A stretch of 64,000 nt of DNA. Origin: Candidatus Manganitrophus morganii (GTDB lineage Bacteria; Nitrospirota; Nitrospiria; SBBL01; Manganitrophaceae). The stretch is taken from positions 3,658,001 through 3,722,000 of the forward strand of contig JAJHOH010000001.1 of NCBI GenBank assembly GCA_021651055.1. The letters run 5' to 3'. The position numbers and the translations under genes are program-made. This document shows, in pieces, positions 24,143-53,949 of the stretch. Positions within the stretch are counted from its first letter, which is position 1. The number at the start of each line of letters is the position of its first letter. The notes under the pieces are model-generated. The model was not told the origin of the DNA, ran no database searches, and saw only the letters and a list, made by a program, of their open reading frames with translations.

Positions 24143-25333
<1,191 letters not shown>

Positions 25334-28366: not shown

Positions 28367-28392
28367 GGGCGGCCACAGGGGGCCGCCCCTAC
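28367..28392 (+). repeat. Family B hairpin in the rplJ-rplL gap
   Basis: GGGCGGCC (28367-28374) pairs with GGCCGCCC (28381-28388) around ACAGGG, and ends CTAC. The right half (GCCCCTAC) matches the hairpins in the rpoB-rpoC gap. No T-run follows, so it is not a simple terminator. Confidence 0.7.
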
Positions 28393-33100: not shown

Positions 33101-33178
33101 GTAGGGGCGAATCTTGTATTCGCCCCTCATTTAGGGCGGGAGGCTTCTCTTTAGGGCGATCACAAGGATCGCCCCTAC
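33101..33178 (+). repeat. Family B composite palindrome in the rpoB-rpoC gap
   Basis: Two hairpins sit in tandem: AGGGGCGAAT/ATTCGCCCCT (33103-33112 with 33118-33127, loop CTTGT) and GGGCGATC/GATCGCCC (33154-33161 with 33167-33174, loop ACAAG). The ends GTAGGGGCGA (33101-33110) and TCGCCCCTAC (33169-33178) are also perfect inverted repeats, so the whole is one palindromic unit with two sub-hairpins whose loops are complementary. The rpoC site follows it closely. Confidence 0.8.
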
Positions 33179-33191: not shown

Positions 33192-36100
33192 ATGGAGACA
33201 ATTAGTAAGGTCGAAGCGATTAACAGCCTGTTTGAAAAATCGAAAGACCCGATCTCTTTTGATGCCATCCGTATTCGAATTGCTTCGCCGGAGAAAATCC
33301 GCTCCTGGTCCTACGGCGAGGTCAAGAAACCGGAGACGATCAATTACCGTTCGTTTAAACCGGAGCGGGACGGGCTCTTCTGCGCCCGGATCTTCGGGCC
33401 GATCAAGGACTGGGAGTGCAACTGCGGAAAATACAAACGGATGAAGCACCGCGGGATCGTCTGCGACAAGTGCGGCGTCGAAGTGATTCAGTCGAAGGTT
33501 CGCCGCGAGCGGATGGGACATATCGAGCTCGCCTCTCCGGTGGCGCACATTTGGTTTTTGAAGGGGGTCCCGAGCCGGATCGGCGCGCTGCTCGACATGA
33601 CCTTGAAGCAGCTCGAGCGGGTTCTCTATTTCGAGAATTACATTGTCATCGATCCGAAAGACACCGATCTGAAAGAAAAAGAGATCCTGACCGAGGACCG
33701 CTATCGTGCCTTGTTGGAGCAATACGGAAACCACGGATTCCGCGCCGACATGGGGGCGGAGTCGATTCGCGAATTGCTGCGGAAGCTCGATCTCGATACG
33801 ATGTGGAATGAGCTGCATCTGAAGGTGGCCGAGGCCAGCTCAACCGCCGTGAAGAAAAAGCTGACGAAGCGATTGAAGGTGATCGAGTCGTTCCGGAAGT
33901 CGGGGAACCGCCCGGATTGGATGATCCTCGACGTCATTCCGGTCCTTCCGCCGGAGCTGCGGCCGTTGGTGCCGCTCGACGGGGGACGGTTTGCGACGTC
34001 CGATTTGAATGATCTTTATCGGCGCGTGATCAACCGGAACAACCGGTTGAAGCGTCTGATCGAATTAAAGGCCCCTTCCGTCATCATCCGGAATGAGAAG
34101 CGGATGTTGCAGGAATCGGTCGACGCCCTCTTCGACAACGGCCGGCGCGGCCGGGCGATCCGAGGACCCAATAAGCGTCCGCTCAAATCGCTCTCCGATA
34201 TGCTCAAAGGAAAGCAGGGGCGGTTCCGTCAGAACCTGCTCGGAAAGCGGGTCGACTACTCGGGGCGGTCGGTGATCGTCGTCGGGCCGGAGCTCAAGCT
34301 CCATCAGTGCGGTCTGCCGAAGAAGATGGCGCTGGAGCTTTTCAAGCCGTTCATCTTCCAGAAGCTCGAAGAACGGGGTTATGTCACCACGATCAAGAGC
34401 GCGAAGAAGATGGTGGAAAAAGAGCGGCCCGAGGTGTGGGATGTGCTCGATGAGGTGATCAAAGAGCATCCGGTCCTGCTGAACCGGGCGCCGACATTGC
34501 ACCGGCTCGGCATCCAGGCGTTCGATCCGTTGCTGGTGGAAGGGAAAGCGATCCGTCTTCATCCGCTCGTCTGCGCCGCGTTTAACGCCGACTTCGACGG
34601 AGACCAGATGGCGGTCCACGTCCCCCTTTCGGTCGAAGCGCAGATCGAGGCGCGCGTTTTGATGATCGCGATCAATAACATCCTCTCCCCCGCCAGCGGA
34701 AAGCCGATCATGGTCCCCTCTCAAGACATGGTGCTCGGCTGCTACTGGCTGACGAAGGAGCGGAGCGGGGCGAAGGGAGAAGGGAAGCTCTTCTCCTCCG
34801 CGGAAGAGGTGCGGATCGCCTACGATCATCGAGAAGTGGAAGAGCATGCCCGGATCAAGGTCAAGCGGGACGGCAGTATGGTTGAGACTACGGTCGGCCG
34901 GATCATTTTGGGCGAGATCCTTCCTCCCTCGATTCCGTTTTCGATGATCAATAAAGTCTTGAACAAGAAAGAGCTGATGAAGCTGATCGATACGGCCTAC
35001 CGCGAGGCGGGCCATCGCGAAACGGTCGTCCTGCTGGATCGGGTCAAAGATCTCGGTTATCTCTACGCGACCAAAGCCGGCATTTCCATCAGCATCGACG
35101 ACATGCACATTCCGAGCAAGAAGGAAGCGTCGATTGAAAAGGCAAAAAAGGAAGTGCTGGAGATCGAGAAACAGTATGCCGAGGGTCTGATTACGAACGG
35201 CGAACGTTATAACAAAGTAGTCGATATCTGGGCGCATGTCACCGAAGTGGTCGCCAGCGAAATGATGAAAGAGCTCGGGCAAGAGGAAGAGAACATCAAG
35301 AAAGGATCGGGCAAGGGAAAACAGTTCAACTCGATCTTCATGATGGCCGATTCGGGCGCCCGGGGCAGCACCCAGCAGATCCGTCAACTCGGCGGAATGC
35401 GGGGATTGATGGCGAAGCCGTCGGGGGAGATCATCGAAACCCCGATCACCGCCAACTTCCGAGAAGGATTGACGGTGTTGCAATACTTCATCTCGACGCA
35501 CGGCGCCCGGAAAGGTCTTGCCGATACGGCGTTGAAGACGGCGAACTCCGGCTACCTGACACGGCGTCTGGTCGATATCGCCCAGGATGTGATCGTGAAC
35601 GACCTCGACTGCGGCACGTCCGACGGGATCACGGTGACCGCCCTGGTGGAAGGGGGAGAGGTGATCGAGCCGCTCGAGGAAAGAATCCTCGGCCGGGTGA
35701 CCGCGGAGGACATCCGCGACCCGATCACCGGAGAGTTGATCTGCGCGGCCATCGAAGAGCTTGATGAGAAAAGAACGCAGGACGTTGTGGAAGCCGGTAT
35801 CGACAAGGTGAAGATCCGTTCGGTGCTGACCTGTCAGGCGCGCCGGGGTGTTTGTGTGAGATGCTACGGACGGGATCTGGCACGGGGCCGATTGGTCGAG
35901 AAAGGGGAGGCGGTCGGCGTGATCGCGGCCCAATCGATCGGAGAGCCCGGAACACAGCTGACGATGCGGACCTTCCACATCGGCGGTACGGCGAGCAAGG
36001 TCATCGAGCAGACGGTTCTTGAAGCGAAGAATGCCGGTATCCTGAAATATCTCAATCTTAATACCGTGAAGAATAAAGACGGCGACATGGTCGCGATGAA

Positions 36101-37358
36101 CCGGAACGGGAAAATCGCGGTCTATGATGAAACCGGCCGTGAGAAAGAGAAATACTCGGTCGTTTACGGCGCCAGAATCAAAGTAAAAGATGGCGCACGG
36201 GTAGAGCCGAGCCAAAAGTTGGTGGAATGGGATCCTTACTCCCTCTCGATTTTGACCGAGGTCGGCGGAAAGATCGCCTTCGGAGACATCATCGAGGGGC
36301 AGACGATGCGGGAAGAGGTTGACGAGGTGACCGGATTGTCCCGACGGGTGATCGTCGATTATCCAGGCTCCAATCTCAGACCGCGTATCTCGATCAAGGA
36401 CGAAGGGGGGAAGACGGCGAAGATCTCCTCTTCCGCCGCCGTCGCCCGGTATCTTTTGCCGGCCGGAGCCCACATTCTGGTCGAGCGGGGACAGGTTGTT
36501 TTTCCGGGGGATGTTCTTGCGAAGATCCCGCGGGAAACGACCAAGACCAAAGATATCACCGGCGGTCTTCCCCGCGTGGCCGAGCTCTTCGAGGCGAGAA
36601 AGCCGAAGGAGCAAGCGGTCATCTCCGAGATCGACGGAACCGTCGAATACGGCGGCTTCGTCAAAGGAATGCGGAAGGTCATTGTCCGGAACGAGATGGG
36701 AGACGCCCGGGAGTATTACATCCCCAAAGGCAAACATGTCAACGTCCATGAGGGAGACTGGGTTCATGCCGGCGAGCCGCTTATGGACGGCTCGGCGAAC
36801 CCGCACGATATCTTGGATGTCCTCGGTCCGAAGGAACTACAAAAGTATCTTGTGGACGAAGTCCAGGAAGTGTACAGGCTACAGGGGGTCTCGATCAACG
36901 ATAAACACATCGAGATCATCGTTCGCCAGATGCTCCGAAGGGTGAAAATTGAAGAGCCGGGGGACACCGAGTTTCTCATCGGGAACCAGGTCGATAAGTT
37001 CGTCTTTCAGTTGGAAAACGAACGGGTGATGGCCAAAGGAGGACGGCCGGCGATTGGAAAACCGATTCTGCTCGGAATCACCAAAGCGGCCCTCTCGACC
37101 GACAGCTTCATCTCGGCGGCCTCGTTCCAAGAAACCACCCGTGTTCTGACGGAAGCGGCGATCAGCGGAAAAACCGATGATCTCTTGGGGCTCAAAGAAA
37201 ATGTGATCGTCGGAAGGCTCATTCCGGCGGGAACCGGATTAAGCAGCTATCGCGAAGTCTATGTCCGGGTGCCGCAGCCGGAGGAAGCCGCGGCGGTCGC
37301 GCAAGAGGCCGTCCCGCAGCTCCCCGCCCCGAGCGAGGAGCCGGCTCCGGCCGAGTAA
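33192..37358 (+). CDS. rpoC: RNA polymerase beta-prime subunit
   Basis: This 1388-aa subunit carries the catalytic NADFDGDQM near residue 466, whose three aspartates hold the active-site Mg. The N-terminal zinc site CNCG...CDKC is near residues 76-94 and the second site [11 protein letters not shown] near 881. The trigger loop includes MRTFHIGG near 925. GGAGG precedes ATG 33192. The C-terminal tail is Ala/Pro/Glu-rich ([18 protein letters not shown]). It is co-transcribed with rpoB. Confidence 0.99.
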
Positions 37359-37387
37359 GCGCAGTACGGATCGATTTTTGTTTCGTG

Positions 37388-37423
37388 TTGAAGTCTCCCG
37401 TGTTTTGCAGCGGGAGACTTCAA
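37388..37423 (+). terminator. 13-bp stem-loop after rpoC (no T-run)
   Basis: TTGAAGTCTCCCG (37388-37400) pairs perfectly with CGGGAGACTTCAA (37411-37423) around a 10-base loop, 30 bases after the rpoC stop and just before the rpsL promoter. No plus-strand T-run follows, so termination may be partial, or the stem may protect or process the 3' end. Confidence 0.55.
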
Positions 37424-37431
37424 CAAAGCGC

Positions 37432-37460
37432 TTGACAAATAAGAATTCTTTCACTATACT
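37432..37460 (+). promoter_or_regulatory. Sigma-70 promoter of the str operon
   Basis: TTGACA (37432-37437) and TATACT (37455-37460) are separated by 17 bases, with the predicted start near 37467 and a leader of about 28 bases to the rpsL GTG. It would drive rpsL-rpsG and, by read-through, fusA-tuf and the S10 array. Confidence 0.85.
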
Positions 37461-37494
37461 TCCACAGTTTCGGTGCTTCATTACAGGAGGGTCT

Positions 37495-37866
37495 GTGCCC
37501 ACAGTCAGTCAGTTGATTAAAAGAGGACGTGAAAAAGCCCGGACAAAGACCAAAAGTCCGGCGTTGAAGGGATCGCCTCAGAAGAGAGGGGTCTGCGTCC
37601 GTGTCTACACCACGACGCCGAAGAAGCCGAACTCTGCTTTGAGAAAGGTGGCGCGTGTCCGCCTGACCAATGGGATGGAAGTCACTTCTTATATTCCGGG
37701 GGTCGGTCACAATCTGCAGGAGCATTCGATCGTGCTTGTCCGCGGAGGAAGGGTGAAGGATCTTCCCGGCGTTCGTTATCACATTGTCCGGGGCGCGCTC
37801 GACACGGTCGGCGTCGCGAATCGGAAGCAGGGGCGCTCCAAGTACGGAGCGAAGACACCGAAATAA
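37495..37866 (+). CDS. rpsL: Ribosomal protein S12
   Basis: GTG 37495 follows AGGAGGG and gives [14 protein letters not shown], the standard S12 start, 123 aa. The decoding-centre loops [16 protein letters not shown] and DLPGVRYH keep the lysines whose change gives streptomycin resistance, so the gene looks wild type there. The protein monitors codon-anticodon pairing at the A site. It begins the str operon. Confidence 0.98.
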
Positions 37867-37917
37867 GGAGAGGTTGATCTGATTCGTCTCCGATTGTAAT
37901 TTCTTACTGAGGTTGAG

Positions 37918-38388
37918 ATGCCAAGGCGAAAAGTAGCCGTCAAAAGAGAAGTTCTCCCGGACCAGCGATTCGGCGATCGGCTGGTCTCGAAATTTATCAA
38001 TATGCTGATGCACCAGGGAAAAAAGAGTATTGCTGAAATGGTCTGCTATAGCGCTTTCGAGTTGATCAAGCAGAAGAGCGGTTCGGACCCGATGAAGGTT
38101 TTCAAGGGCGCCGTCGAAAATGTGAAACCGATGGTTGAGGTAAAATCGCGGCGGGTCGGCGGTGCCTCCTACCAGGTTCCTGTTGAAATTCGCCAGAGCC
38201 GCCGAACCACCTTAGCCCTGCGATGGATCACCCTTTACGCAAAACAGCGGGCCGGAAAGAGCATGGAAGAAAAACTGGCCGCCGAGCTGATGGACGCCTC
38301 GAATAATACCGGCGGCGCGGTGAAGAAGCGGGAGGATACCCACAAGATGGCCGAGGCCAACAAGGCCTTCGCGCATTATCGCTGGTAA
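37918..38388 (+). CDS. rpsG: Ribosomal protein S7
   Basis: This 156-aa protein matches the family length: [20 protein letters not shown] at the start and [20 protein letters not shown] in the conserved middle. It nucleates 30S head assembly, and E. coli S7 represses its own operon by binding the rpsL-rpsG junction. The gap here is 51 bases and I saw no close copy of that target. An intrinsic terminator follows it. Confidence 0.98.
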
Positions 38389-38408
38389 TTGTTCAAAGAA
38401 TACCCGTC

Positions 38409-38437
38409 GGGTGAGGGCGCTGCCTTCACCCTTTTTT
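38409..38437 (+). terminator. Intrinsic terminator between rpsG and fusA
   Basis: GGGTGAGGGC (38409-38418) pairs with GCCTTCACCC (38422-38431) around a 3-base loop (one G-T pair), followed directly by TTTTTT (38432-38437). This is a textbook rho-independent terminator inside the str operon. No clear new promoter lies between it and fusA, so it probably acts as an attenuator. Confidence 0.82.
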
Positions 38438-38495
38438 ACTCTATCTCCTCTCGCTTTGAGTGCCGGAGAGGAAAAACAGCGGTAGACAGAGTCCA

Positions 38496-40583
38496 ATGGC
38501 ACGCGAATATCCTTTAGAGAGAACGAGAAACATCGGGATCATGGCCCATATCGACGCCGGAAAAACGACCACGACTGAGCGCATCCTCTACTATACCGGC
38601 GTGACCCACCGCATCGGCGAAGTCGATGAAGGGACCACGACGATGGACTGGATGGAGCAGGAACGGGAGCGCGGAATCACGATTACCTCCGCCGCCACGA
38701 CCTGTTACTGGAAAAACCATCGGATCAACATCATCGATACCCCCGGCCATGTCGATTTCACGATTGAAGTGGAGCGTTCGCTCCGTGTTCTGGACGGCGC
38801 CGTGGCGGTTTTCGATTCCGTGCAAGGGGTCGAGCCGCAGTCCGAGACGGTCTGGCGTCAGGCCGATCGATACAACGTTCCGCGCATCGCGTTCATGAAC
38901 AAAATGGACCGGACCGGCGCCGATTTTTTCGCCAGCGTTCAGTCGATGGTCGATCGGCTTGGAACCCGGCCCGTTCCGATCCAGATCCCGATCGGGAAAG
39001 AAGGGACCTTCCGCGGGCCGGTCGATTTGATCACGATGAAGGCGATTTTCTTCGATGATGAAACGCTCGGCGCAAAATTCGTTGTCGATGAGATCCCGGA
39101 AGATCTCCGCGAAACCGCCCAAGCGTATCGCGACAAGATGATCGAGGCGTTGGCCGACGTCGATGACGCGATCATGGAAAAGTTTTTAAGCGGAGATGCG
39201 ATTGCCCCCGAGGAGATCAAGCGGGCGCTGAGAAAAGGAACACTGGCCATGAAGATCGTTCCGGTCCTCTGCGGCGCTTCTTTTAAGAACAAAGGGGTTC
39301 AGCTTCTGATCGATGCCGTCGTCGACTTTCTCCCCTCTCCGCTCGATGTTCCGCCGGTCAAGGGGATCGATCATAAAACGGGAAACGAGGTCATTCGAAA
39401 CGCCAGCGACAGCGAGCCGTTCTCCGCGCTGGCGTTCAAAATCATGAGCGATCCTTTCGTCGGACAGCTTACTTATTTCAGGGTCTATTCCGGCGTGCTC
39501 CATTCCGGTTCGTACATCTATAACTTGACCAAGGACACGAAGGAGCGAATCGGGCGGCTTTTGAAGATGCACGCCAACAAGCGGGAAGAGATCAAAGAGG
39601 TGTATGCGGGGGATATCGCCGCCGCCGTCGGCCTCAGGAATTCGACGACGGGGGACACCCTCTGCGATGAGAACCACCCGATCCTTCTGGAGGTGATGAA
39701 ATTTCCGGAGCCGGTTATCTCGATGGCGATCGAGCCGAAGACCAAGGCCGATCAGGAGAAGCTCGGCCTCTCGCTCCAGAAGCTCGGGCAGGAAGACCCG
39801 TCGCTCCGGATCTCCAGCGATGAAGAGACTTTGCAAACGATCATCTCCGGGATGGGGGAACTGCACCTTGAGATCATCGTTGATCGTTTGAAGCGGGAAT
39901 TTAAAGTCGAGACCAACGTCGGAAAACCGCAGGTGGCCTATCGCGAAACCATCCAGGCGAAGGCCGAGGCGGAAGGGAAATATATCCGGCAGTCGGGAGG
40001 CCGGGGTCAATACGGCCATGTCTGGCTGACCGTCGAGCCCCAAGAGTCCGGAAAGGGATTCGAGTTCGTCAATAAAATCGTCGGGGGCGCGGTTCCGAAG
40101 GAATATATCCCCGCGGTTGAGAAGGGGGTTCGCGAGGCGATGACCTCCGGCATTGTCGCCGGATATCCGATGGTCGATTTCAAGGTCACCCTCACCGACG
40201 GATCGTACCACGAGGTCGACTCCTCGGAAATGGCGTTTAAGATTGCCGCCTCCATGGGATTCAAGGAGGCAACAAAGCGTGCCAGCCCGGCGTTGCTGGA
40301 GCCGATCATGGATTTAGAGGTCATCGTCCCGGAAGAATACATGGGGGATGTCATCGGAAATCTCAGCTCCAAGCGGGGGAAGATTCTCGGAATGAAAATG
40401 CGGGGCGGGGCGCAGGTGATTTCTGCCCAGGTCCCGCTGGCGGAGATGTTTGGATATGCGACCGATCTTCGGTCGATGACGCAGGGACGGGGTGTCTTTA
40501 CCATGCAATTTGCTCACTACGACGTGGTTCCGAAAAATATCTCGGATGAGATTATTGCAAAGAGCCAAGGGACCGCCGCGTAG
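38496..40583 (+). CDS. fusA: Elongation factor G
   Basis: ATG 38496 gives [20 protein letters not shown]; the frame is open from 38460 but that extension has no homology to EF-G. The 695-aa protein has the P-loop [14 protein letters not shown], switch [11 protein letters not shown] and the NKMDRTGAD motif, then domains II-V ending [12 protein letters not shown]. It drives translocation with GTP hydrolysis. The RBS is weak, so its dose may depend on read-through from rpsG. Confidence 0.98.
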
Positions 40584-40589
40584 AAGTGA

Positions 40590-40662
40590 GAAGACGTTAA
40601 TCGCTAAACGTGAATTGTTAATCGCTTTGATTTCACGATTCACGAATAACGACTCACGAATA
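40590..40662 (+). repeat. Family C repeat, copy C1 (fusA-tuf gap)
   Basis: The gap is made of repeated words: GTTAATCGC twice and ACGAATAA twice, plus CGCTAAACGTGAA and TCACGATTCACGAATAACGA. The words match those in the secY-adk and rpsK-rpsD gaps. It is AT-rich compared with flanking genes and ends just before the tuf RBS. Confidence 0.65.
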
Positions 40663-40683
40663 ATGATTATTTTGGAGGGATAG

Positions 40684-41874
<1,191 letters not shown>

Positions 41875-41906
41875 CAGGACTTGATCTAAAAAGAAGTAAG
41901 GAAGAA

Positions 41907-41966
41907 GCGAGCGCCGGGCGTGGGGCATCGGAGCATCCTGCGAAGCAGGAGCGCACGGGTCCCACA
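41907..41966 (+). repeat. Family A structured intergenic repeat, copy A2 (before rpsJ)
   Basis: GTGGG (41920-41924) pairs with CCCAC (41961-41965). The inner hairpin is TCCTGC (41936-41941), GAA, GCAGGA (41945-41950). The core GCATCGGAGCA and GCGCACGGGT match other copies. This is the shortest copy and lacks the left-end hairpin seen in A3-A5. The rpsJ start is 20 bases downstream. Confidence 0.75.
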
Positions 41967-41985
41967 TAGAAATAAAGGGAAAAGC

Positions 41986-42291
41986 GTGAATCAGAAAATT
42001 CGAATTCGGTTAAAAGCGTACGACTATCGCGTTCTGGATCAATCGGTCGGGGAGATCGTCGAAACGGTGAGGCGAACCGGTGCCAAGGTGGCCGGTCCGA
42101 TTCCTCTTCCGACGAAGATCAACAAGTATACGGTCCTTCGGTCGCCGCACGTCGATAAGAAGTCCAGGGAGCAGTTTGAGATCCGAACACATAAGCGCCT
42201 CATCGATATTTTGGAACCGACGCCGGAGACGGTCGATGCCCTGATGAAATTGAATCTCTCGGCGGGCGTGAATGTGGAGATCAAGCTTTAA
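41986..42291 (+). CDS. rpsJ: Ribosomal protein S10 (NusE)
   Basis: GTG 41986 gives 101 aa, the normal length, starting [19 protein letters not shown]; the longer open frame includes translated repeat sequence and is rejected. S10 sits in the 30S head and also works with NusB and NusG in antitermination. It heads the S10 operon. AAGGGAAAAGC upstream is a fair site. Confidence 0.97.
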
Positions 42292-42309
42292 ATAGCGAAG
42301 GTGAGAGAG

Positions 42310-42969
42310 ATGGTAGACGGATTAATCGGATATAAGCTTGGGATGACGCAGGTGTATGACGAGGGGAAGCTCGTTCCCGTCACGGTCATCGAGGTCGGCC
42401 CTTGTAAGGTGGTTCAGATCAAGACGGTCGAAAGGGAAGGTTACCCGTCGGCGCAGCTCTCCTTTGACGAGGTGAAAGAACACCGCGTGACCCAACCGGT
42501 GCGAGGGCATTTCAAACGGGCGAATGTCGCCCCCGCCCGGGTGCTCAGGGAGTTTAAGGGAGACCTCAACGGGATCAGCGTCGGCCAGGTCATTACGGCG
42601 GAGATTTTCCAAAAGGGGGAATTCGTCACCGTGACCGGAACCTCCAAGGGGAAGGGTTTTCAAGGGGTGATGAAGCGGCACCACTATCGGGGCGGTCCTG
42701 CGACACACGGATCGATGTTCCACCGTCGTCCCGGATCGATCGGGGCGAGCTCTTTTCCCTCCCGCGTTTGGAAGAACAAGGGAATGCCGGGCCATATGGG
42801 AAGCGAGCGGGTGACCGCGGAAGGGTTGGAGATCGTCGATGTCCGCGCGGAGGAAAATCTTGTTTTCGTCAAGGGATCGATTCCCGGGAGCGAGAACGGA
42901 TTGGTCCTGATCCATAAGGCAAAGCGGGGGAAGGTCAAAAAGCAGGCGGAGCCGGCTAAGAAAAAATAG
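42310..42969 (+). CDS. rplC: Ribosomal protein L3
   Basis: ATG 42310 gives MVDGLIGYKLGMTQVYDEG, the usual L3 start, 219 aa; GTG 42301 would add three residues. The signature TGTSKGKGFQGVMKRHHYRGG is present in the central loop that reaches the peptidyl-transferase centre; I cite only its ends here (TGTSKG, HHYRGG). L3 initiates 50S assembly. It begins 18 bases after rpsJ. Confidence 0.97.
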   Translation: MVDGLIGYKLGMTQVYDEGKLVPVTVIEVGPCKVVQIKTVEREGYPSAQLSFDEVKEHRVTQPVRGHFKRANVAPARVLREFKGDLNGISVGQVITAEIFQKGEFVTVTGTSKGKGFQGVMKRHHYRGGPATHGSMFHRRPGSIGASSFPSRVWKNKGMPGHMGSERVTAEGLEIVDVRAEENLVFVKGSIPGSENGLVLIHKAKRGKVKKQAEPAKKK

Positions 42970-42986
42970 ATCATTTTGAGGGAACC

Positions 42987-43625
42987 ATGCCTGAAGTAGA
43001 AGTGAAAAATATTCAGAATGAAAAAACGGGGACCATCACCCTGGATGAGCCGATCTTCGGCGCAGCGGTTTCCAAGGGCCTTCTTCATGAGGTGGTTCTG
43101 ATGCAGCAAGCTTCCATGCGCCAGGGGACGGCCTCGACGAAAACGAAGGGTTTTGTCAGCGGCGGCGGAAAGAAGCCGTGGAAGCAGAAGGGAACCGGAC
43201 GGGCCCGGGCGGGATCGAATCGCTCTCCGATTTGGAGGGGCGGGGGAACGACTTTCGGTCCGCTCCCTCGTTCGTATGCGTACGACATTCCTAAAAAGAA
43301 GTCGAGGAAGGCGCTCTTTTCGGCCCTCTCCTCCAAGGTGGAAGAGGGAAAGTTGCTCGTCCTGGAGGATCTTGAGATCTCCGAGCCGAAAACAAAAACG
43401 ATGGTGAATCTGCTCGGACGGCTCGGATTGGACGGGAAGGTCCTCCTCGTCGTCTCGCAAATCCAGGAGAATCTCGATCGTGCGGCGCGCAATATCCCGC
43501 TGGTCAAGATGCTGGAAGTCCGACAATTGAACGTTTATGATCTCCTGCTGGCGGATACGGTCGTCATTACGCGCCGGGATGTCGCCAGGCTGGTAGAGGT
43601 GTGGGGAAACCATGAATCGGCATGA
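42987..43625 (+). CDS. rplD: Ribosomal protein L4
   Basis: This 212-aa protein has the basic extended loop with KKPWKQKGTGRARAGSNRSP, which lines the nascent-chain tunnel, and the GGGTTFGPLPRSY stretch. In E. coli L4 represses the S10 operon; no matching leader is visible here. The 3' end overlaps rplW by 14 bases, implying coupled translation. Confidence 0.97.
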   Translation: MPEVEVKNIQNEKTGTITLDEPIFGAAVSKGLLHEVVLMQQASMRQGTASTKTKGFVSGGGKKPWKQKGTGRARAGSNRSPIWRGGGTTFGPLPRSYAYDIPKKKSRKALFSALSSKVEEGKLLVLEDLEISEPKTKTMVNLLGRLGLDGKVLLVVSQIQENLDRAARNIPLVKMLEVRQLNVYDLLLADTVVITRRDVARLVEVWGNHESA

Positions 43626-43896
43626 TATTATCCTCCGTCCGGTTTTGACGGAGAAGAGCACGCAGCTTCGTGAAGCGCAGAATAAGTACTGTTTTGCGAT
43701 CCGGCGGAATGCGAACAAGAGTGAAGTGAAGCGGGCCGTCGAAGATACCTTGAATGTGAAGGTCAAGGATGTCCGCATCGTGAATGTGCCTGGAAAAGAG
43801 AAACGATTGGGGCGGTTTGTCGGAAAGCGGCCCGATTGGAAGAAGGCGATCGTCACCCTGAAAGAGGGTGAGAAGTTAGCGCTGTTCGAAGGATAA
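43612..43896 (+). CDS. rplW: Ribosomal protein L23
   Basis: The 94-aa length fits L23. It begins MNRHDIILRPVLTEKST and has the KSEVKRAVEDTLNVKVKDVR helix and strand, shown in part by EVKRAVE. It sits at the tunnel exit where SRP and trigger factor bind. The ATG lies inside the end of rplD. Confidence 0.97.
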   Translation: MNRHDIILRPVLTEKSTQLREAQNKYCFAIRRNANKSEVKRAVEDTLNVKVKDVRIVNVPGKEKRLGRFVGKRPDWKKAIVTLKEGEKLALFEG

Positions 43897-43951
43897 TTGC
43901 AAGAGCAGGACGCTTTTCAACAGGTCTCTACCGTATAGAGGTTATTGATCA

Positions 43952-44776
43952 ATGGGAGTAAAGACATACAAGCCAACGTCACCGGGTCGCCGTTCTGCAA
44001 TGGGTTTGACCTTTGAGGAGATTACGAAGACCGAACCCGAAAAGAGTTTGGTTCGCTCGCTTCCCCCTTCGGGCGGAAGAAACAATCGCGGAAAGATCAC
44101 GGTGCGCCATCGCGGCGGCGGACACAAGCGGGCCTACCGGATCATCGATTTCAAGAGAAATAAGTTCGACATCCCCGCCACCGTGGCGTCGATTGAATAC
44201 GATCCGAATCGGTCGGCCCGGATTGCCCTGCTCACCTATGCGGACGGCGAGAAGCGCTATATCATCGCGCCGGACGGTTTAAGGGTGGGGGAGCATCTGA
44301 TGTCGGGACCGAACGCCGAGATTCGGAACGGAAATGCCCTCCCGTTGTCCAACATCCCCGTCGGGAGCATGATTCATAATATTGAGCTGAAGCAGGGAAA
44401 AGGGGGCCAGCTTGCCCGGAGTGCCGGCGCGTCGGCGCAGTTGATGGCGAAAGAGAACGAGTGGGTTCAGATCCGTTTGGGTTCGGGCGAGGTTCGTCTT
44501 GTCCACGCCGCCTGTATGGCGACCATGGGGCAAGTCGGAAATATCGATCATGAAAATTACTCTTTGGGCAAGGCGGGACGAACCCGTTGGTTGGGCCGTC
44601 GGCCGACCGTCCGAGGGGTTGCGATGAACCCGGTCGATCATCCGCACGGCGGAGGAGAAGGAAAGGCCGGTCAGGGGAATCCGCATCCGGTCTCTCCCTG
44701 GGGCCAGTTGACCAAAGGATATAAGACGCGGCGCAGAAAAGACACCGACGCCTTCATTATTAAGAGAAGAAAATAA
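43952..44776 (+). CDS. rplB: Ribosomal protein L2
   Basis: The 274-aa length matches. [14 protein letters not shown] at the start, and the conserved [17 protein letters not shown] near residues 221-237, which includes the histidine near the peptidyl-transferase centre. A family A element fills the gap to rpsS. Confidence 0.98.
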
Positions 44777-44777
44777 A

Positions 44778-44862
44778 GCGAGCGACTGGCTGTGCCAGCG
44801 CGAGCGCGGGGTGTGGGGGCATCGGAGGATTCCTGCGAAGCAGGAACCGCACGGGCCCCACC
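44778..44862 (+). repeat. Family A structured intergenic repeat, copy A3 (before rpsS)
   Basis: The left hairpin is CTGGC (44786-44790), TGT, GCCAG (44794-44798). The outer stem is GTGGGG (44813-44818) with CCCCAC (44856-44861), and the inner hairpin TTCCTGC (44830-44836), GAA, GCAGGAA (44840-44846). This is the most regular copy. It ends 24 bases before the rpsS start. Confidence 0.82.
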
Positions 44863-44885
44863 GAACGATAAACCAAAGGTTAGCG

Positions 44886-45173
44886 ATGCCGAGATCAGTT
44901 AAAAAAGGACCGTTCGTCGACACACATCTGGCGGAAAAAATCGCCAAGATGAACGAATCGAACGACAAAAAGATCCTCAAGACGTGGTCGCGCAGATCGA
45001 CCATTACCCCGGAGATGATCGGACATACCCTCGCCGTCCACAACGGAAAGAAGTTTATCCCGGTCTACATCACGGAAAACATGGTCGGCCACAAGCTCGG
45101 AGAATTTTCGGCGACCCGGTTCTTCAAGGGGCATGGCGCTGCCAAGACGGAAAAGGCGACGGCGTTAAAGTAA
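44886..45173 (+). CDS. rpsS: Ribosomal protein S19
   Basis: ATG 44886 gives [19 protein letters not shown], 95 aa, with the C-terminal [14 protein letters not shown]; the upstream open frame is repeat sequence. S19 sits in the 30S head and contacts the A-site finger. It is in the standard L2-S19-L22 order. Confidence 0.97.
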
Positions 45174-45229
45174 CGAATGAGTCAGTGCCGGATTGATCCC
45201 GGTCTGTGCGGTTTAGGAGTGGAGTTCAA

Positions 45230-45787
45230 ATGGAAGCGAAAGCCGTTTTGCGGTACATCCGTGTGGCGCCCCGAAAGGCAAGGTTGGTCGTCGATCTCAT
45301 CCGAGGCAAAAATGCCGCGGAGGCGCTCACGATTCTTAAGTTTACGCCGAGGCACGCCGCCAAGGTGATCGAGAAGGTTTTGAAATCGGCCGTCGCCAAT
45401 GCCGCCCAGAAAGAGATGGGGGATGTCGATGATCTCTGGGTTTCCAAGGCGCTCGTCGACGGAGGCCCGGTGATGAAACGAATGGAGCCGAGGGCGATGG
45501 GACGGGCCAATATTATTCGGAAGCGGACGAGCCATATTACCTTGATCTTATCCGTGGTGGAGATTGCCCCCAAAAAGCCGAAGGCAACGAAGGCAGAACC
45601 GGTTCAGGCGGCGCCTGTTGTGGAAAAGGAAGTTGAAAGCAAGGCCAAGAAGCCGAAAGCCCGTAAAGCCGTCGCCGATAAAGAAACAAAAACGGAGAGT
45701 AAACCGAAGAAGCCGAAAGCCCCCAAGGCAGAGGCGACAAAGAAGAAGGCGGAGAAGAAATCCTCCGCTGCCGAGAAGGAGCAATAA
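45230..45787 (+). CDS. rplV: Ribosomal protein L22 with long basic C-terminal tail
   Basis: ATG 45230 (AGGAGTGGAG upstream) gives 185 aa, where typical L22 is about 110. Residues 1-112 are standard, including [16 protein letters not shown] and the tunnel loop [17 protein letters not shown]. The remaining 70 or so residues are a Lys/Ala/Pro/Glu low-complexity tail with repeated KPKA and AKKPKA motifs. L22 lines the exit tunnel, so the tail would hang outside the ribosome. The stop shares one base with the rpsC ATG. Confidence 0.95.
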
Positions 45788-46461
45788 TGGGGCAGAAAGT
45801 TCATCCGATCGGATTCCGATTAGGTTATATCAAAACGTGGAGCTCGCGCTGGTATGCCGAGAAGGACTATGCCAAGCTGCTTCATGAAGATCTGAAGATC
45901 CGGAAGATCGTCAAAAAGAAACTCTACCACGCGGGTGTTGCGCGGGTCGAGATCGAGCGCTCCGGAAATCAGATCCGGATCACCATCCACACCGCCCGGC
46001 CCGGAATCATCATCGGGAGAAAAGGGGCCGAGGTCGACAAGCTCAAGGTCGAGCTCGAAGCGATGACCAAGAAGCAGGTCTACATCAACATCAAAGAGAT
46101 CAAGAAGCCGGAGCTCGACGCGCAACTGGTCGCGGAGAACATCGCCATGCAGTTGGAAAAGCGGGTCGCCTACCGGCGCGCCATGAAGAAAGCGGTCGCC
46201 TCTTCCCTTCGGCTGGGCGCGTTGGGGATCAAGGTCTACTGCGCAGGAAGGTTGGCGGGGGCCGAAATCGCGCGGACCGAGTGGTATCGGGAGGGGCGGG
46301 TTCCGTTGCATACCCTTCGCGCCGATATCGATTTCGGGTTGGCGGAAGCGGCGACGACCATGGGCCAGATCGGCGTGAAGGTTTGGATCTATCGAGGCGA
46401 GATTCTTCCGGAGACGCAAAAAGAGCGAGAATTGGCTGCTGCACGAGGTGAGAGAAGATAA
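45787..46461 (+). CDS. rpsC: Ribosomal protein S3
   Basis: This 224-aa protein begins [18 protein letters not shown] and has the KH motif [17 protein letters not shown], and [11 protein letters not shown]. It is at the mRNA entry site of the 30S subunit. Single-base overlaps with both rplV and rplP indicate translational coupling. Confidence 0.98.
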
Positions 46462-46874
46462 TGCTGTCCCCTAAGAAGGTAAAATACCGAAAACGGATGA
46501 AGGGTCGGATGGCCGGCAAGGCGTACCGCGGGTCCGATCTGAGTTTTGGCGAGTTCGGTCTCAAGGCAATGGAGCCGGGCTGGATTACGGCGAGGCAAAT
46601 CGAGGCGGCGCGTATCGCGATGACCCGCTTCGTCAAGCGGGGAGGAAAAATCTGGATTCGCATCTTCCCGGACAAGCCGATTACCAAGAAGCCCGCCGAA
46701 ACGCGTATGGGAAAGGGAAAGGGCGCCCCCGAATATTGGGTGGCGGTGGTCAAGCCGGGCCGGATCATCTACGAGATGGACGGAGTCACCCCCGAGGTGG
46801 CGAAAGAGGCCTTCCGGTTGGCCGCGTACAAGCTTCCGATCGCTACGCAGTTTGTAGCGCGGGGGGAGGAATAA
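46461..46874 (+). CDS. rplP: Ribosomal protein L16
   Basis: The 137-aa length fits. The N-terminus is [17 protein letters not shown] and the core has [20 protein letters not shown], with the arginine that is hydroxylated in some bacteria. It organises the A-site region of the large subunit. The TAATG overlap couples it with rpsC. Confidence 0.97.
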
Positions 46875-46877
46875 GAA

Positions 46878-47099
46878 ATGGCGGATGTAAAGGATTTTAG
46901 AGAGTTGACGGCGGAGGAGCTCTCTCAGAAAGAGAAAGAGCTCCGGAAGGAGCTCTTCAACCTCCGTTTTCAGGCGGTTTCCGGACATGTCGAGAACCCC
47001 AATCGGATCAAGTTGATTAAGCGAGACGTCGCGCGGGTTCTGACCTTTTCTCAAATGAAAAAGAAAGAAGCGACCGAGAAAGAAGGCGCTTCGAAATAG
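46878..47099 (+). CDS. rpmC: Ribosomal protein L29
   Basis: This 73-aa helical-hairpin protein has FRELTAEELSQKEKELRKEL and FNLRFQAVSGHVENPNRI, the L29 signature. It lies beside L23 at the tunnel exit. It starts three bases after rplP, with GGGGAGG inside that gene as its site. Confidence 0.96.
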   Translation: MADVKDFRELTAEELSQKEKELRKELFNLRFQAVSGHVENPNRIKLIKRDVARVLTFSQMKKKEATEKEGASK

Positions 47100-47125
47100 G
47101 ATTCCAGGTGAACGACAAGGAAAAC

Positions 47126-47383
47126 ATGTTGAAAAAGAGAAAAGAATACGTTGGCCAGGTTATCAGCGACAAGATGGAGAAGACTGTCGTCGTCGCGATC
47201 GACCGGATGGTGCAGGATCCTCGATACAAGAAATTTTTAAAGAGAACCAGCAAGCTGAAAGCGCACGATGAGAAAAACGAGGCCCATGTCGGCGATCGGG
47301 TCAAGCTCATCGAGACGCGTCCAATCAGCCGGGAGAAGCGGTGGGTCGTCGTCGAAGTGCTGGAGCGGGCGAAAGAGGTTTAA
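47126..47383 (+). CDS. rpsQ: Ribosomal protein S17
   Basis: I choose ATG 47126 (AAGG five bases upstream), giving 85 aa starting MLKKRKEYVGQVISDKMEK, the common S17 layout; GTG 47108 in frame would add six residues and also has an AGG nearby. The OB-fold core has KTVVVAIDRMVQDPRYKK. It binds 16S helix 11 early in 30S assembly. Confidence 0.94.
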   Translation: MLKKRKEYVGQVISDKMEKTVVVAIDRMVQDPRYKKFLKRTSKLKAHDEKNEAHVGDRVKLIETRPISREKRWVVVEVLERAKEV

Positions 47384-47432
47384 GAAGAAACAATCCAAAA
47401 CGGTTTAATCTTAACGGAAGCGGGTGCTTAGC

Positions 47433-47801
47433 ATGGTACAAATTTACACAATGCTCGATGTCGCTGATAACTCCGGGGCCAAGAAGGTGATGTGCTTCCA
47501 TGTCAAAGGGGGCTCGAAGAAACGTTATGCGCGCCTGGGCGATATCATCGTTGCCACTGTGAAGGAAGCGATCCCACAAGGGAGCGTCAAAAAGGGAGAT
47601 GTGGTGCGGGCGGTGGTGGTCCGGACGACGAAAGAAGTGCGTAGAGACGACGGCTCCTACATCAAGTTCGATCGGAACGCGGCGGTTCTGATCAATGCCC
47701 AGGGAGAACCGATTGGAACGCGTATTTTCGGCCCCGTTGCAAGAGAGCTCCGCTGGAAAAAGTTTACGAAGATTATTTCACTTGCGCCTGAAGTTTTATA
47801 A
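47433..47801 (+). CDS. rplN: Ribosomal protein L14
   Basis: ATG 47433 gives 122 aa, the exact family length, starting [22 protein letters not shown] 47424 is rejected. [23 protein letters not shown] near the end fits, seen as ARELR and KIISLAPE. L14 forms the intersubunit face and binds RsfS in starvation. Confidence 0.97.
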
Positions 47802-47812
47802 AGGATTTGATG

Positions 47813-48163
47813 ATGGGAAAAGCCACTTTACCGTTGCTCAGGACCAAGATTAAGAAAGGCGATATTGTTCATGTGGTCGCCGGCAAAGAAAAAGGAAAAG
47901 AGGGAAAGGTCTTGCAGGTCCTTCCGGATAAGCAGGCCGTTGTTGTTGAAAAGCTGAATCTCTTGAAGAAGCATACCCGGCCGAACCAAAAAAACCCAAA
48001 GGGGGGAATCGTCGAGCGAGAGGGGAGGGTCCATCTCTCGAATGTGATGATTGTCTGCGCAAACTGCGTGAAGCCGAGAAGAATCGGGAGCAAGACGCTG
48101 CCGGACGGAAAGAAGTTGAGGGTCTGCAAATCTTGCGGCGAAGCGCTGGATAAAGAAGCTTAG
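47813..48163 (+). CDS. rplX: Ribosomal protein L24
   Basis: Three start codons lie in a row (TTG 47807, ATG 47810, ATG 47813); AAGGA at 47801-47805 best fits ATG 47813. The 116-aa protein has the KOW motif KKGDIVHVVAGKEKGKEGK and a C-terminal Cys pair region (CANC, CKSC) that may hold zinc, as in some L24s. It is a 50S assembly initiator. Confidence 0.95.
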   Translation: MGKATLPLLRTKIKKGDIVHVVAGKEKGKEGKVLQVLPDKQAVVVEKLNLLKKHTRPNQKNPKGGIVEREGRVHLSNVMIVCANCVKPRRIGSKTLPDGKKLRVCKSCGEALDKEA

Positions 48164-48221
48164 TTTTCGATCGACAGAGATCGGAACACATCTTAAGCGA
48201 GGCGAGGAACGGTAAAGGATC

Positions 48222-48794
48222 ATGAAAACAACCAATAATATTGCGTCAGCCAAAGAACGATACCAGCAGGAAGTGGTTCCTGCGATGATGAAGGAATTTG
48301 GGTATAAGAATCCGATGCAGGTGCCCAAACTCGAAAAAATCGTCGTTAATGTCGGAATGGGAGAGGCGATCTCCAACGTCAAGTTGCTCGATGCGGCGGT
48401 GAAAGAGCTCGGCCAGATTACCGGACAGAGACCGGTCGTCACCAAGGCCAAAAAATCGATCGCCGGATTTAAGCTTCGGGAAGGGATGCCGATCGGCGCC
48501 AAAGTCACCCTTCGGCGGGAGAGAATGTATGAATTTTTGGATCGGCTCCTCAATGCGGCCCTTCCCAGAATTCGTGACTTCAGGGGGATCTCCCTCAAAG
48601 CATTCGACGGAAAAGGAAACTACACCTTGGGAATCAAGGAGCAGTTGATCTTTCCGGAGATTAACTACGATGAGGTGGCTGCGATTCACGGAATGGACAT
48701 TACCATCGTCACCACCGCGACGAACGACACCGAGGGAAGAGCGTTGCTGCGAATTTTCGGTTTCCCCTTCCGCAAACCGAGTGAGCCGAAGTAA
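48222..48794 (+). CDS. rplE: Ribosomal protein L5
   Basis: This 190-aa protein is at the long end for L5. It has [11 protein letters not shown] and [19 protein letters not shown], and it ends with the [12 protein letters not shown] stretch. It binds 5S rRNA and contacts the P-site tRNA. A family A element and a TTG-started S14 gene follow. Confidence 0.97.
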
Positions 48795-48817
48795 GTTTTG
48801 GAGTATCACAGATAAAG

Positions 48818-48904
48818 GCGAGGATCGGGCTGAGCCCATCCGAGCCGCGGGGAGTGGGGACGTCGGAGGACCTTCTCTTTGGGTCCACCGGACAGGTCCC
48901 CACA
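48818..48904 (+). repeat. Family A structured intergenic repeat, copy A4 (before rpsN)
   Basis: The outer stem is GTGGGGAC (48854-48861) with GTCCCCAC (48896-48903), 8 bp. The left hairpin is GGGC (48827-48830), TGA, GCCC (48834-48837). The inner pair is GGACC (48868-48872) with GGTCC (48882-48886). It ends 19 bases before the TTG of rpsN. Confidence 0.8.
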
Positions 48905-48922
48905 TAAAAATAGAGGTAGACA

Positions 48923-49108
48923 TTGGCAAAGAAATCTTTAATTGCAAAAGCCCAAAGGACCCCCAAGTTCCAGGTGAGAAAATACAATCGCTGCGCCACT
49001 TGCGGTCGGGTGCGCGGTTATATTCGAAAATTCAACATGTGCCGGATCTGTTTTCGCCTGTTGAGCTTGAAGGGAGAGATCCCTGGGGTGATCAAATCGA
49101 GTTGGTAG
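48923..49108 (+). CDS. rpsN: Ribosomal protein S14, zinc type (type Z)
   Basis: TTG 48923 is the only start that fits: AGAGGTAG is upstream and it gives [19 protein letters not shown], 61 aa, the length of the zinc-containing form. The zinc site is C-x2-C at residues 24 and 27 (CATC) and a second pair near 40-43 (CRIC). It binds the 30S head. It lies between rplE and rpsH as usual. Confidence 0.95.
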
Positions 49109-49180
49109 GTCGGACTGTCCTTAACATCATCGTAGATCGATGATAGGAAACGCCGATCACGGAAGTAATTGGAGTCGAGA

Positions 49181-49573
49181 ATGACAGATCCTATTTCAGA
49201 TATGCTGACCAGAATCAGAAATGCCAAAATGCGGAAACACGAAGTAGTCGATATTCCCCTTTCGAAGGTTAAGGTGGAGCTTGCGCGGATCTTAAAAGAA
49301 GAGGGGTTTATTCGAAATTATCGTGTGGTCGGCGAATCGGTGAAGAAGAATTTGAGGGTTTATCTCAAATATGTCGAAAACGACGAGCCGGTGATCAGCG
49401 ACCTGCAGCGCGTCAGCAAACCGGGCCGGCGCGTGTATGTCGGCAAGGATGAAATTCCTTCGGTGAAGGGGGGGATCGGCGTTGCAATCCTCTCCACCTC
49501 GAAGGGGCTGATGACCGATCAGAAATCGCGTGAAGCGAAGGTCGGCGGAGAGGTCCTCTGTTACATCTGGTAA
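49181..49573 (+). CDS. rpsH: Ribosomal protein S8
   Basis: ATG 49181 gives [19 protein letters not shown], 130 aa, ending in the conserved [11 protein letters not shown]; the four extra upstream codons are not conserved. S8 organises the 16S central domain and in E. coli represses the spc operon. No copy of its helix-21-like target was obvious nearby. Confidence 0.97.
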
Positions 49574-49593
49574 CGAGCTGAGAATAAATCAAG

Positions 49594-49678
49594 GCGAGGA
49601 GCAGGCTTTGCCTGTCCGAGCCGCGGGGTGTAGGGGCATCGGAGGACCTCTCTTCGATCCGCCGCACGGGTCCCCACA
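49594..49678 (+). repeat. Family A structured intergenic repeat, copy A5 (before rplF)
   Basis: The left hairpin is CAGGC (49602-49606), TTT, GCCTG (49610-49614). The outer stem is TGT-A-GGGG (49629-49636) with CCCCACA (49672-49678), with one bulged A. The inner hairpin is weak here (GGA with TCC). The rplF start is 22 bases downstream. Confidence 0.78.
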
Positions 49679-49699
49679 ATAAGATAAAAGGTTGAGATT

Positions 49700-50236
49700 A
49701 TGTCGCGAGTCGGTTTAAAAAAAATTACGATTCCCAATGGGGTCAGCGTCAAAGTGAATCCGGACAACGTCCACGTCAAAGGCCCGAAGGGAGAAAATCA
49801 AAAGGCGCTTCGGCCCGAGATCAAGGTTGACGTTCAGGGAACCGAGATTGCTGTCTCTCGCATTTCGGACGATCGGTTTGTCCGATCGCTTCACGGTTTG
49901 ACCCGAAACGAGATTCAGAACATGATCGTCGGCGTGACACAGGGATTCGAGAAGGTGCTCGAGATCAATGGGGTCGGTTTCCGCGCCGCGGTGCAGGGGA
50001 GAGTGCTGGTTTTAAATTTAGGATATTCCCATCCGATCAATTTTGAGCTTCCAAAGGGGATTGATGCAACGGTTGAAAAGCAGACGACCGTCACGATCAA
50101 AGGAATCGACCGGTATCTGGTCGGACAGGTGGCGGCGAATATCCGCGCATTAAGAGAGCCCGAACCCTATAAAGGGAAAGGGATCAAGTACAAAGACGAG
50201 CGGATCATCCGTAAAGAGGGAAAGACTGGAAAATAA
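49700..50236 (+). CDS. rplF: Ribosomal protein L6
   Basis: This 178-aa protein begins [19 protein letters not shown] and ends with [16 protein letters not shown], the L6 signature. It lies near the sarcin-ricin loop where translation factors bind. AAAAGG precedes the ATG. Confidence 0.97.
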
Positions 50237-50256
50237 CTCGTAAAACGGGGTTTGTG

Positions 50257-50634
50257 ATGGCGGTATCGGCGAAAGAAAAGGTTCTGGCAAGAACGAGAAG
50301 GCACGAACGGGTTCGAAACAAAATTATGGGAACCCCCGAGCGGCCGCGTCTCTCCGTTTATCGGAGCCTGGACAATATTTATGCTCAGATTATTGATGAC
50401 CTTTCCGGAAAAACATTGGCGGCGGCTTCCTCCCTTACGAAAGCGGCCAAAGGAAAAAAGGGGAAAGCGTCGGGGGGAAATATCGAAGGGGCAAAGATGG
50501 TCGGCGCAAAGCTGGCCGCCCTTGCGAAGGAGAAAAATATCAGCAAGGTGGTCTTTGATCGGGGGGGGTATATCTATCACGGGAGAGTGAAGGCGCTTGC
50601 AGACGCGGCCAGAGAAGGCGGACTTGTATTCTAA
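50257..50634 (+). CDS. rplR: Ribosomal protein L18
   Basis: ATG 50257 gives 125 aa starting [23 protein letters not shown] 50254 is adjacent in frame. [20 protein letters not shown] and [20 protein letters not shown] are typical. With L5 it binds 5S rRNA. It starts 20 bases after rplF. Confidence 0.96.
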
Positions 50635-50685
50635 GCACGACGGCAACCCTTCTGTTTGATGGGACGGGTTTTTAGGAGGCGGTAC

Positions 50686-51186
50686 TTGGCAAAAATTAAT
50701 GCAGACGAACTGACGTTAAAAGATAAGGTCGTATTCATCAACCGCGTGGCGAAAGTAGTGAAGGGGGGCAAGCGCTTCTCCTTTTCCGCCGTGGTGGTGG
50801 TGGGAGACGGCCAGGGGCATGTCGGGGTCGGCAAGGGAAAAGCGGCGGAGGTTCCTGAAGCGATTCGAAAAGCGATTGAGAATGGAAAGAAGAATCTGGT
50901 CCGCGTCCCCTTGAAAGAGTCGACGATTCCTTTTGAAATCACCGGGCATTACGGGGCCGAGAATGTTCTGCTCAAGCCGGCGGCGGATGGAACCGGGATC
51001 ATCGCGGGGGGGCCGGTCCGGGCCGTGATGGAGATGGTCGGAATTTCGAATATCCTCTGCAAGTCGCTCGGGAGCGGAAACCCGCTCAACGTGGTCAAGG
51101 CGACGTTGGAAGGTTTCTCGAAACTGAGAGATCCCGGAGAGATGGTCAGGCGGAGGCAGACGGCCCTCGCGCTGTCGGAGAGATAG
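50686..51186 (+). CDS. rpsE: Ribosomal protein S5, TTG start
   Basis: TTG 50686 follows a perfect TTTAGGAGG with six bases spacing and gives (M)[18 protein letters not shown], the usual S5 start, 166 aa; the frame is open from 50656 but that extension is not S5-like. The conserved [14 protein letters not shown] motif is present. S5 helps accuracy at the mRNA channel. Confidence 0.95.
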
Positions 51187-51187
51187 A

Positions 51188-51400
51188 ATGGCAAAGAAAG
51201 AAGCTTCGAAAACGGCGACAAAACAGTTATCGATTACCCTGGTGCGGAGCTATATCGGGCGGCCCGGAAAACATAAAAGAGTGGTTGCCGGACTCGGCCT
51301 CCGTAAAATGAATCAAACGGTGATCCGCCAGGATACGCCTCAAACGCGCGGGATGATTCATAAAATTTCGCATCTGCTGGAGGTCAAGGAAATCTCGTGA
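51188..51400 (+). CDS. rpmD: Ribosomal protein L30
   Basis: The 70-aa protein has [20 protein letters not shown] and [17 protein letters not shown], typical of L30. It starts one base after rpsE. The stop overlaps rplO by four bases (GTGA). Confidence 0.96.
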
Positions 51401-51840
51401 AGATATCGGATTTAGCGCCCACTCCCGGGGCCAAGAAAAAAGAAAAAAGGATCGGGCGGGGACCGGGTTCGGGACATGGGAAGACATCGACCAAGGGGCA
51501 TAAAGGCCAAGCGGCCCGATCAGGCGGAACGAAGGCTCCCGGTTTCGAAGGGGGACAACAGCCGTTGATTCGCCGGGTTCCAAAACGCGGCTTTAAGAAT
51601 ATCTTCAAGAAAGAATACGCGGTCGTCAATCTGAGCAGACTCGATCAGTTCCCGGCCGAGACGGTGATCAACCCCGAGTTTCTCCATCAAGCCGGCATCA
51701 TCAAAAGATCAACCGAAAGCGTTAAGATTTTGGGGGAAGGAGCGCTGACGAAGCCGTTGGTCATCGCCGCCCATAAGTTCAGCGAAGAGGCCCTCAAGAA
51801 AATTCAGGCGGCCGGCGGGCGGGCCGAGGTCCTCTCATAG
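51397..51840 (+). CDS. rplO: Ribosomal protein L15
   Basis: GTG 51397 gives [19 protein letters not shown], 147 aa, with [20 protein letters not shown] and the [13 protein letters not shown] segment. The basic N-terminal arm threads through 23S rRNA. It is coupled to rpmD by overlap and followed by secY after 11 bases. Confidence 0.97.
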
Positions 51841-51851
51841 GAGAGAGTGGG

Positions 51852-53165: not shown

Positions 53166-53168
53166 GGG

Positions 53169-53240: not shown

Positions 53241-53257
53241 CATAGAGGGATAGAACA

Positions 53258-53911: not shown

Positions 53912-53949
53912 TGGGTTCAAAGCAATCCGGTTGACCCAAAGGGAAGAAA

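Follow-up and report, generated by a model that had tools for sequence, protein, structure and literature searches.

A partial terminator between the genes of a ribosomal-protein operon is familiar from E. coli, in which the rplL-rpoB attenuator is of this kind; the genes past that terminator are needed in a smaller amount, unlike those of the array described here. For the S10 and L10 leaders, gating of ribosomal-protein genes by a terminator is established (passages of PMC10931766 on these leaders). The L4-controlled E. coli S10 leader resembles the locus studied here, a 64,000-nt stretch of the genome of Candidatus Manganitrophus morganii (the window), in having a read-through-capable intrinsic terminator in a ribosomal-protein transcript; however, the S10 attenuator is part of a long structured 5′ leader that precedes rpsJ and binds L4, whereas the terminator of the window lies between two genes. 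The Bacillus L10-leader terminator likewise is intrinsic and gates ribosomal-protein genes, but it has anti-antiterminator and kink-turn parts, none of which was seen in the terminator of the window (same passages of PMC10931766). In E. coli, S7 feedback on the str mRNA is described in that source as translational, with a site between rpsL and rpsG and with fusA translationally coupled to rpsG; in the window, by contrast, a 107-nt gap with a terminator separates rpsG from fusA. Such feedback acts on the same operon and could feed the gate proposed below.

At the rpsG-fusA junction itself, an attenuator is predicted in streptococci, and attenuation ahead of rpsL is widely predicted (sections of PMC2965389). 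Peaks of 3′ ends after rpsG and in the rpsG-fusA gap, listed under S. pneumoniae-type gene names in portions of the PIPETS report (PIPETS 2024, PMC11585934), likewise point to a terminator in this gap of the same operon, in a phylum unrelated to that of the window. The literature searched held nothing on the rpsG-fusA junction in Nitrospirota, and the terms fusA, uS7, uS12 and Nitrospir are absent from the main text of PMC7247131, which presents 20 novel ribosomal leaders. Termination at rpsG-fusA is already known in kind; the lineage is new in the literature searched.

The hairpin between rpsG and fusA

The window comes from a genome assembled as a single contig of 4.29 Mb. On its + strand the genes run in the order rpoB-rpoC, rpsL, rpsG, fusA, tuf, rpsJ and the S10-spc-alpha genes. 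Ribosomal protein S12 is encoded by rpsL (37495..37866, +, GTG start, from its open reading frame and a home-made gene call) and S7 by rpsG (37918..38388, +, stop codon 38386-38388, from its open reading frame, with relatives in 54 of 58 genomes); among the named relatives of S7, records of Nitrospira and further Nitrospirota score best. The first gene past the terminator is fusA for EF-G (open reading frame 38496..40583, +, the ATG at 38496 being picked by N-terminus alignment), followed by tuf for EF-Tu (open reading frame 40684..41874, +, the second copy in the window, with a protein identical to that of 24143-25333) and by rpsJ for S10 (41986..42291, +, open reading frame and gene call), which opens the S10-spc-alpha part. 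The terminator is followed by about 25 ribosomal-protein genes. Elsewhere in the array, GGGCGA...TCGCCC palindromes at 28367-28388, 33104-33126 and 33154-33174, in the rplJ-rplL and rpoB-rpoC gaps, look like a dispersed intergenic repeat, and a GTGGGG...CCCAC-type paired element at 41915-41970, in the tuf-rpsJ gap before rpsJ, is common to G000, G002 and G005 with changed letters and is a possible S10-operon leader.

The rpsG-fusA gap holds a 10-bp stem-loop (38409..38431, +), supported by sequence, folding, a scan for T-tailed hairpins and conservation in the order. Its 5′ arm GGGTGAGGGC (38409-38418) and 3′ arm GCCTTCACCC (38422-38431) enclose the loop GCT (38419-38421), one of the ten pairs is G-U, and the T-run TTTTTT (38432..38437, +) follows directly 3′ of the stem; relatives mostly have 6 to 9 T. 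The stem starts 20 nt past the rpsG stop, and 58 nt separate the end of the T-run from the fusA ATG. The 10-bp stem, 3-base loop and six T that the earlier note had placed after rpsG are thus confirmed by sequence and folding, and the element has the sequence features of an intrinsic terminator, namely a G+C-rich stem of at least five pairs, a short loop and a T-run directly after the stem. In a 51-nt context it folds at -18.7 kcal/mol (z -3.8, with 0 of 200 shuffles as good), and its stem energy ranges from -17 to -19 kcal/mol across scans.

By energy the hairpin ranks third of 247 T-tailed hairpins on the + strand of the whole window, and it is the first with a tail that starts with six T among the 25 listed in the + strand scan of the window. 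In a consensus scan of the + strand from 36001 to 56000 no site is longer or richer in G+C; as a class, however, terminator-like sites in this interval are barely above chance (33 found against 25.8 expected), so that it is conservation that carries the case. Rfam at gathering score matched only tRNAs in the whole window, with no ribosomal-protein leader, and in the str region gave only chance matches at E up to 5. A small hairpin, ACCC-GTC-GGGT (38402..38412, +), read from the sequence and compared among the forms in the genus, uses part of the terminator 5′ arm as its 3′ half and is a possible minor antiterminator of the genus only.

How often such hairpins occur elsewhere was gauged by home-made gene calling on 40 stretches of 20 kb from the same genome together with the window (864 kb, 785 genes). 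Among co-directional gaps of 60-149 nt, a hairpin with a T-run occurs in 3 of 139 at -17 kcal/mol or better and in 5 of 139 at -13 kcal/mol or better; the corresponding counts for convergent gaps of this length are 5 of 46 and 7 of 46. The gene caller put the fusA start late, so that the gap of the window itself was counted in the 150-299 nt class, in which 6 of 59 gaps reach -17 kcal/mol.

Conservation of the junction in the order

The order was sampled with 18 genomes, in 17 of which rpsG was found (G001 has no rpsG match). The junction was counted in the 16 that carry rpsG and fusA on one contig, leaving out G007, in which the hairpin is present and the contig end (locus L005) folds back as a palindrome centred on it, running into the reverse complement of rpsG, a likely assembly artefact. 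A hairpin with a T-run occupies the rpsG-fusA gap in 13 of the 16, with the letters of stem and loop changed and the stem starting 15-28 nt past the rpsG stop; per genome, 0 to 8 of 100 shuffled gaps matched the observed hairpin. The three genomes without a terminator are G004, G006 and G008. G004, a draft genome of the same genus (locus L134), has an rpsG with a broken frame, and the hairpin is gone from its gap, which may reflect sequencing error; the gaps of G006 and G008 measure 150 and 203 nt.

The stems fall into two types, GGTGAAGG/CCTTCACC in the window, three further genomes of the genus, G009, G010, G013 and G014, and GGAGC/GCTCC in G011, G012, G015, G016 and G017. A single alignment of all the hairpins misaligned the two types and was unusable for pair counts, and each type was therefore aligned apart. 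Pairs were counted in seven type-one stems, leaving out the five type-two stems and G002, whose stem is identical to that of the window. In these seven, 97% of cells pair, as against 50-64% with the partner slid; variation occurs in 6 of 10 pairs, and in 2 of these both partners change. The excess of covariation is modest, with 38-58 of 500 column shuffles reaching the observed values on all five measures.

Outside the order, a loose rule for the terminator found none in 14 other genomes of the class that lie outside families f6 and f13, and matched 2 of 29 loci in the rest of the phylum and 6 of 66 in other phyla. The rule also fires in 22 of 73 loci of f6, the Nitrospira-type family, and in 3 of 5 loci of f13, neither of which was counted as canonical terminators; in the f6 alignment the T-run begins about 4 nt after the outer stem, which is why the f6 matches were set aside. 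Judged from sequence, the terminator at the rpsG-fusA junction is real and not due to chance, and it looks to be under selection. That its position is kept while its letters change makes a chance hairpin improbable and a leaky or regulated valve probable.

Promoters and readings of the junction

Upstream, rpsL-rpsG has a promoter, TTGACA-17-TATACT (37432..37460, +), which matches the consensus at 11 of 12 positions, ends its -10 box 34 nt before the rpsL start codon and, with a weight-matrix score of 16.1, ranks second among the + strand sites of the window. The form TTGAC(A/T)-17-TATA(A/C)T stands 31-35 nt before rpsL in 14 of 17 genomes of the order; G006 and G010 have TTGACA-18-TAGAAT before rpsL at other distances, and G008 has no consensus promoter there. 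G008 therefore lacks both the consensus promoter and the terminator, and G006 combines a variant promoter with no terminator. Just past the rpsL -10 box, the first transcribed bases (37466-37474) include a short stretch like GTTTTGGG, here GTTTCGG, which recurs in the rpsL leaders of several relatives in the order. Between rpoC and this promoter lies a long hairpin without a T-run, GTTGAAGTCTCCCG...CGGGAGACTTCAAC (37387-37424), which is present in G002 and G004, changed in sequence in G003 and absent in G005.

Downstream, nothing comparable is seen. Apart from the rpsL site, no promoter scores above 8.9 by weight matrix between 37359 and 43900, and the best scores are 3.5 in the rpsG-fusA gap (rank 1469 in the window), 7.1 in the fusA-tuf gap (rank 162) and 4.6 in the tuf-rpsJ gap; the scans recognise sigma-70-like sites only. 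Within the limits of a sigma-70 scan, the remark of the earlier note that fusA-tuf and the S10 array have no good promoter of their own holds, and within such sites the junction has the arrangement of an attenuator, a terminator ahead of a gene without a later promoter. Since the stretch running from the terminator across tuf and rpsJ shows no comparable promoter, transcription of fusA-tuf-S10 most likely relies on read-through.

With slightly better than even confidence, we take the rpsG-fusA element to be a conserved attenuating intrinsic terminator at which termination is partial or conditional. A strong promoter, two genes, a kept terminator and then genes without a visible promoter make an attenuator the simplest reading, from which we infer termination in vivo, leakage and gating by the ribosome. 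Transcription would start at the strong rpsL promoter and cross rpsL-rpsG; part of it would stop at 38432-38437, and the rest would enter fusA-tuf and the S10-spc-alpha array. A ribosome that trails RNA polymerase closely to the rpsG stop would hinder folding of the stem. When rpsL-rpsG is well translated, this trailing ribosome, which NusG-S10 might link to the polymerase, would favour read-through; lagging translation, or its repression, for instance by S7 feedback, would let the stem fold and cut off the array.

The E. coli terminator tR2 offers a parallel: in the experiments excerpted from PMC4824070, it is repressed when its stem is near the stop codon, and the repression is lost at distances above about 27 nt. 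By analogy, the stems of the order, at 15-28 nt, would lie within or near the zone of ribosome repression, which fits gating. Among strong terminators in the genome of the window the spacer has a median of 30 nt and falls within 13-30 nt in 15 of 34, so that the 20-nt spacer alone is no argument for gating. A link between ribosome and polymerase through NusG and S10 is mentioned in the same excerpts of PMC4824070; it would be a softer form of antitermination and is compatible with gating by the ribosome.

The main rival is that of hidden promoters, in which the terminator is a full transcript boundary, rpsL-rpsG is a two-gene operon, and transcription of fusA-tuf and the array starts at promoters that escape a sigma-70 scan, being weak, before tuf or inside fusA. 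This is unlikely but deserves attention, because two promoters of E. coli tufA lie within fus (passage of PMC10931766 on str). A strong hairpin with a T-run could stop most polymerase, and the array would then be starved unless undetected promoters exist; moreover, the consensus promoter directly before rpsL and the terminator directly after rpsG occur in the same genomes, and the AT-rich fusA-tuf gap holds the weak site that scores 7.1. Against such a boundary speak the lack, between 37461 and 43867, of any + strand sigma-70 site that scores at least 9/12, the small room between T-run and fusA in some relatives (only about 30 nt in G011), and the fusA-tuf gap itself, which in G000 is unlike those of G002, G005 and G009, so that no shared promoter is visible there. 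A constant partial termination that keeps S12/S7 mRNA above EF-G mRNA, as at rplL-rpoB in E. coli, agrees with a conserved terminator between genes of one operon, but we consider it improbable. Most ribosomal proteins are encoded downstream and are required in equal number to S12 and S7, and a constant drop would require translational compensation for all of them, so that the roughly 25 downstream ribosomal-protein genes, needed in the S12/S7 amount, weaken this reading. The proposal of the earlier note that most transcripts stop here, giving more S12/S7 than EF-G, accordingly survives as partial termination or conditional read-through and loses ground as pure stoichiometry.

The remaining readings are each given very little weight. 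Control by the ribosome could in principle have the opposite sign, with the codons GCC TTC GCG near the end of rpsG pairing with the terminator 5′ arm, so that translation favours termination. An alternative duplex of 8-10 bp does form in the genus (-17.1 kcal/mol in G000, -18.9 in G005; matched or bettered by 16, 9, 2 and 0 of 200 shuffles in G000, G002, G003 and G005), but most of the nine other order genomes tested do not show it (eight are matched by 44-161 of 200 shuffles, G013 by 13 of 200), the pairing codons encode an S7 C-terminal stretch kept in 14 of 14 order loci read, and folds of nascent-RNA prefixes do not favour the duplex. Strong only in the genus and weak in G013, it was rejected as a general antiterminator, and the reading is highly improbable. 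We think it hardly more credible that processive antitermination of the NusB-S10-NusG type carries a modified polymerase through: the S10 and NusG genes lie within the array and a boxA-like GCTCTTTGACA occurs in the same gap of two myxobacterial loci, but the window has no boxA-like site on the + strand from rpsL to fusA, which leaves the NusG/S10 antitermination suggested earlier unsupported. With up to 2 mismatches, GCTCTTTGACA has no + strand match in the window from 34138 onward, as a query uncalibrated on the organism's own rRNA leader; no rRNA was found in the genome copy by RF00177 or a 530-loop pattern, perhaps because it is masked. The myxobacterial sites (L038:717-727 and L040:2713-2723) are the only two exact matches among 268 loci, and boxA-type control of this junction may exist elsewhere. 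That the hairpin is neutral, or does no more than stabilise the mRNA 3′ end or mark a processing site, we regard as a slim prospect, since the T-run is kept directly after the stem in the genomes of the order and stabilisation alone would not need one.

A structured RNA at the same junction in Nitrospira-type genomes

In f6 the rpsG-fusA gap has a median of 113 nt and holds an RNA of about 100 nt, with an outer helix around GTGCTGCAG/CTGCAGCAC, an inner helix TGCTGCGAT/ATCGCAGCA and, on its 3′ side, a T-rich stretch followed by the fusA ribosome-binding site (L029:1969-2085, L127:3054-3168, L122:3026-3139 and comparable loci of the family). The 75 distinct gaps were reduced to 40, of which 27 were aligned, leaving out short gaps, f13 and more divergent ones. 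Across the 27 rows 94.7% of cells pair and 11 of 26 pairs show changes on both sides; the observed value was reached by none of 500 shuffles on four of five measures and by 1 of 500 on the fifth.

A covariance model of this RNA, searched with strict filters, matches once in each of 63 genomes among the 116 of the class, and 62 of the 63 belong to f6, the training rows matching by construction; among the places compared with rpsG positions, the matches follow rpsG directly. With stricter filters it matches none of the 18 genomes of the order, and no match was found in the window or its order among 37 sources searched. Rfam at gathering score found nothing in ten loci, including L031 and L035, which carry the RNA, and nothing above threshold in the carriers L031, L035, L127, L260 and L262; a sub-threshold hit (E 0.42) was seen in four loci tested for the RNA. 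The f6 RNA is unrelated to the terminator of the order. It adjoins the ribosome-binding site, which suggests control of fusA translation. It may be more novel than the terminator of the order and gives a concrete candidate for a leader family that would be new.

If polymerase leaks through the terminator of the window or is gated there, EF-G, EF-Tu and roughly 25 ribosomal-protein genes would stand under one hairpin, and the junction would offer a simple test of translation-to-transcription feedback on ribosome genes outside the model phyla. More speculatively, and with a good deal of doubt on our part, the rpsG-fusA junction could be a main valve of the str-S10-spc-alpha superoperon in the class, built in at least two unrelated ways, as a ribosome-gated terminator in the order of the window and as a structured RNA in the Nitrospira-type family. 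Were this so, everything downstream would have its transcription or translation set by how well rpsL-rpsG is translated, by a ribosomal protein or by EF-G.
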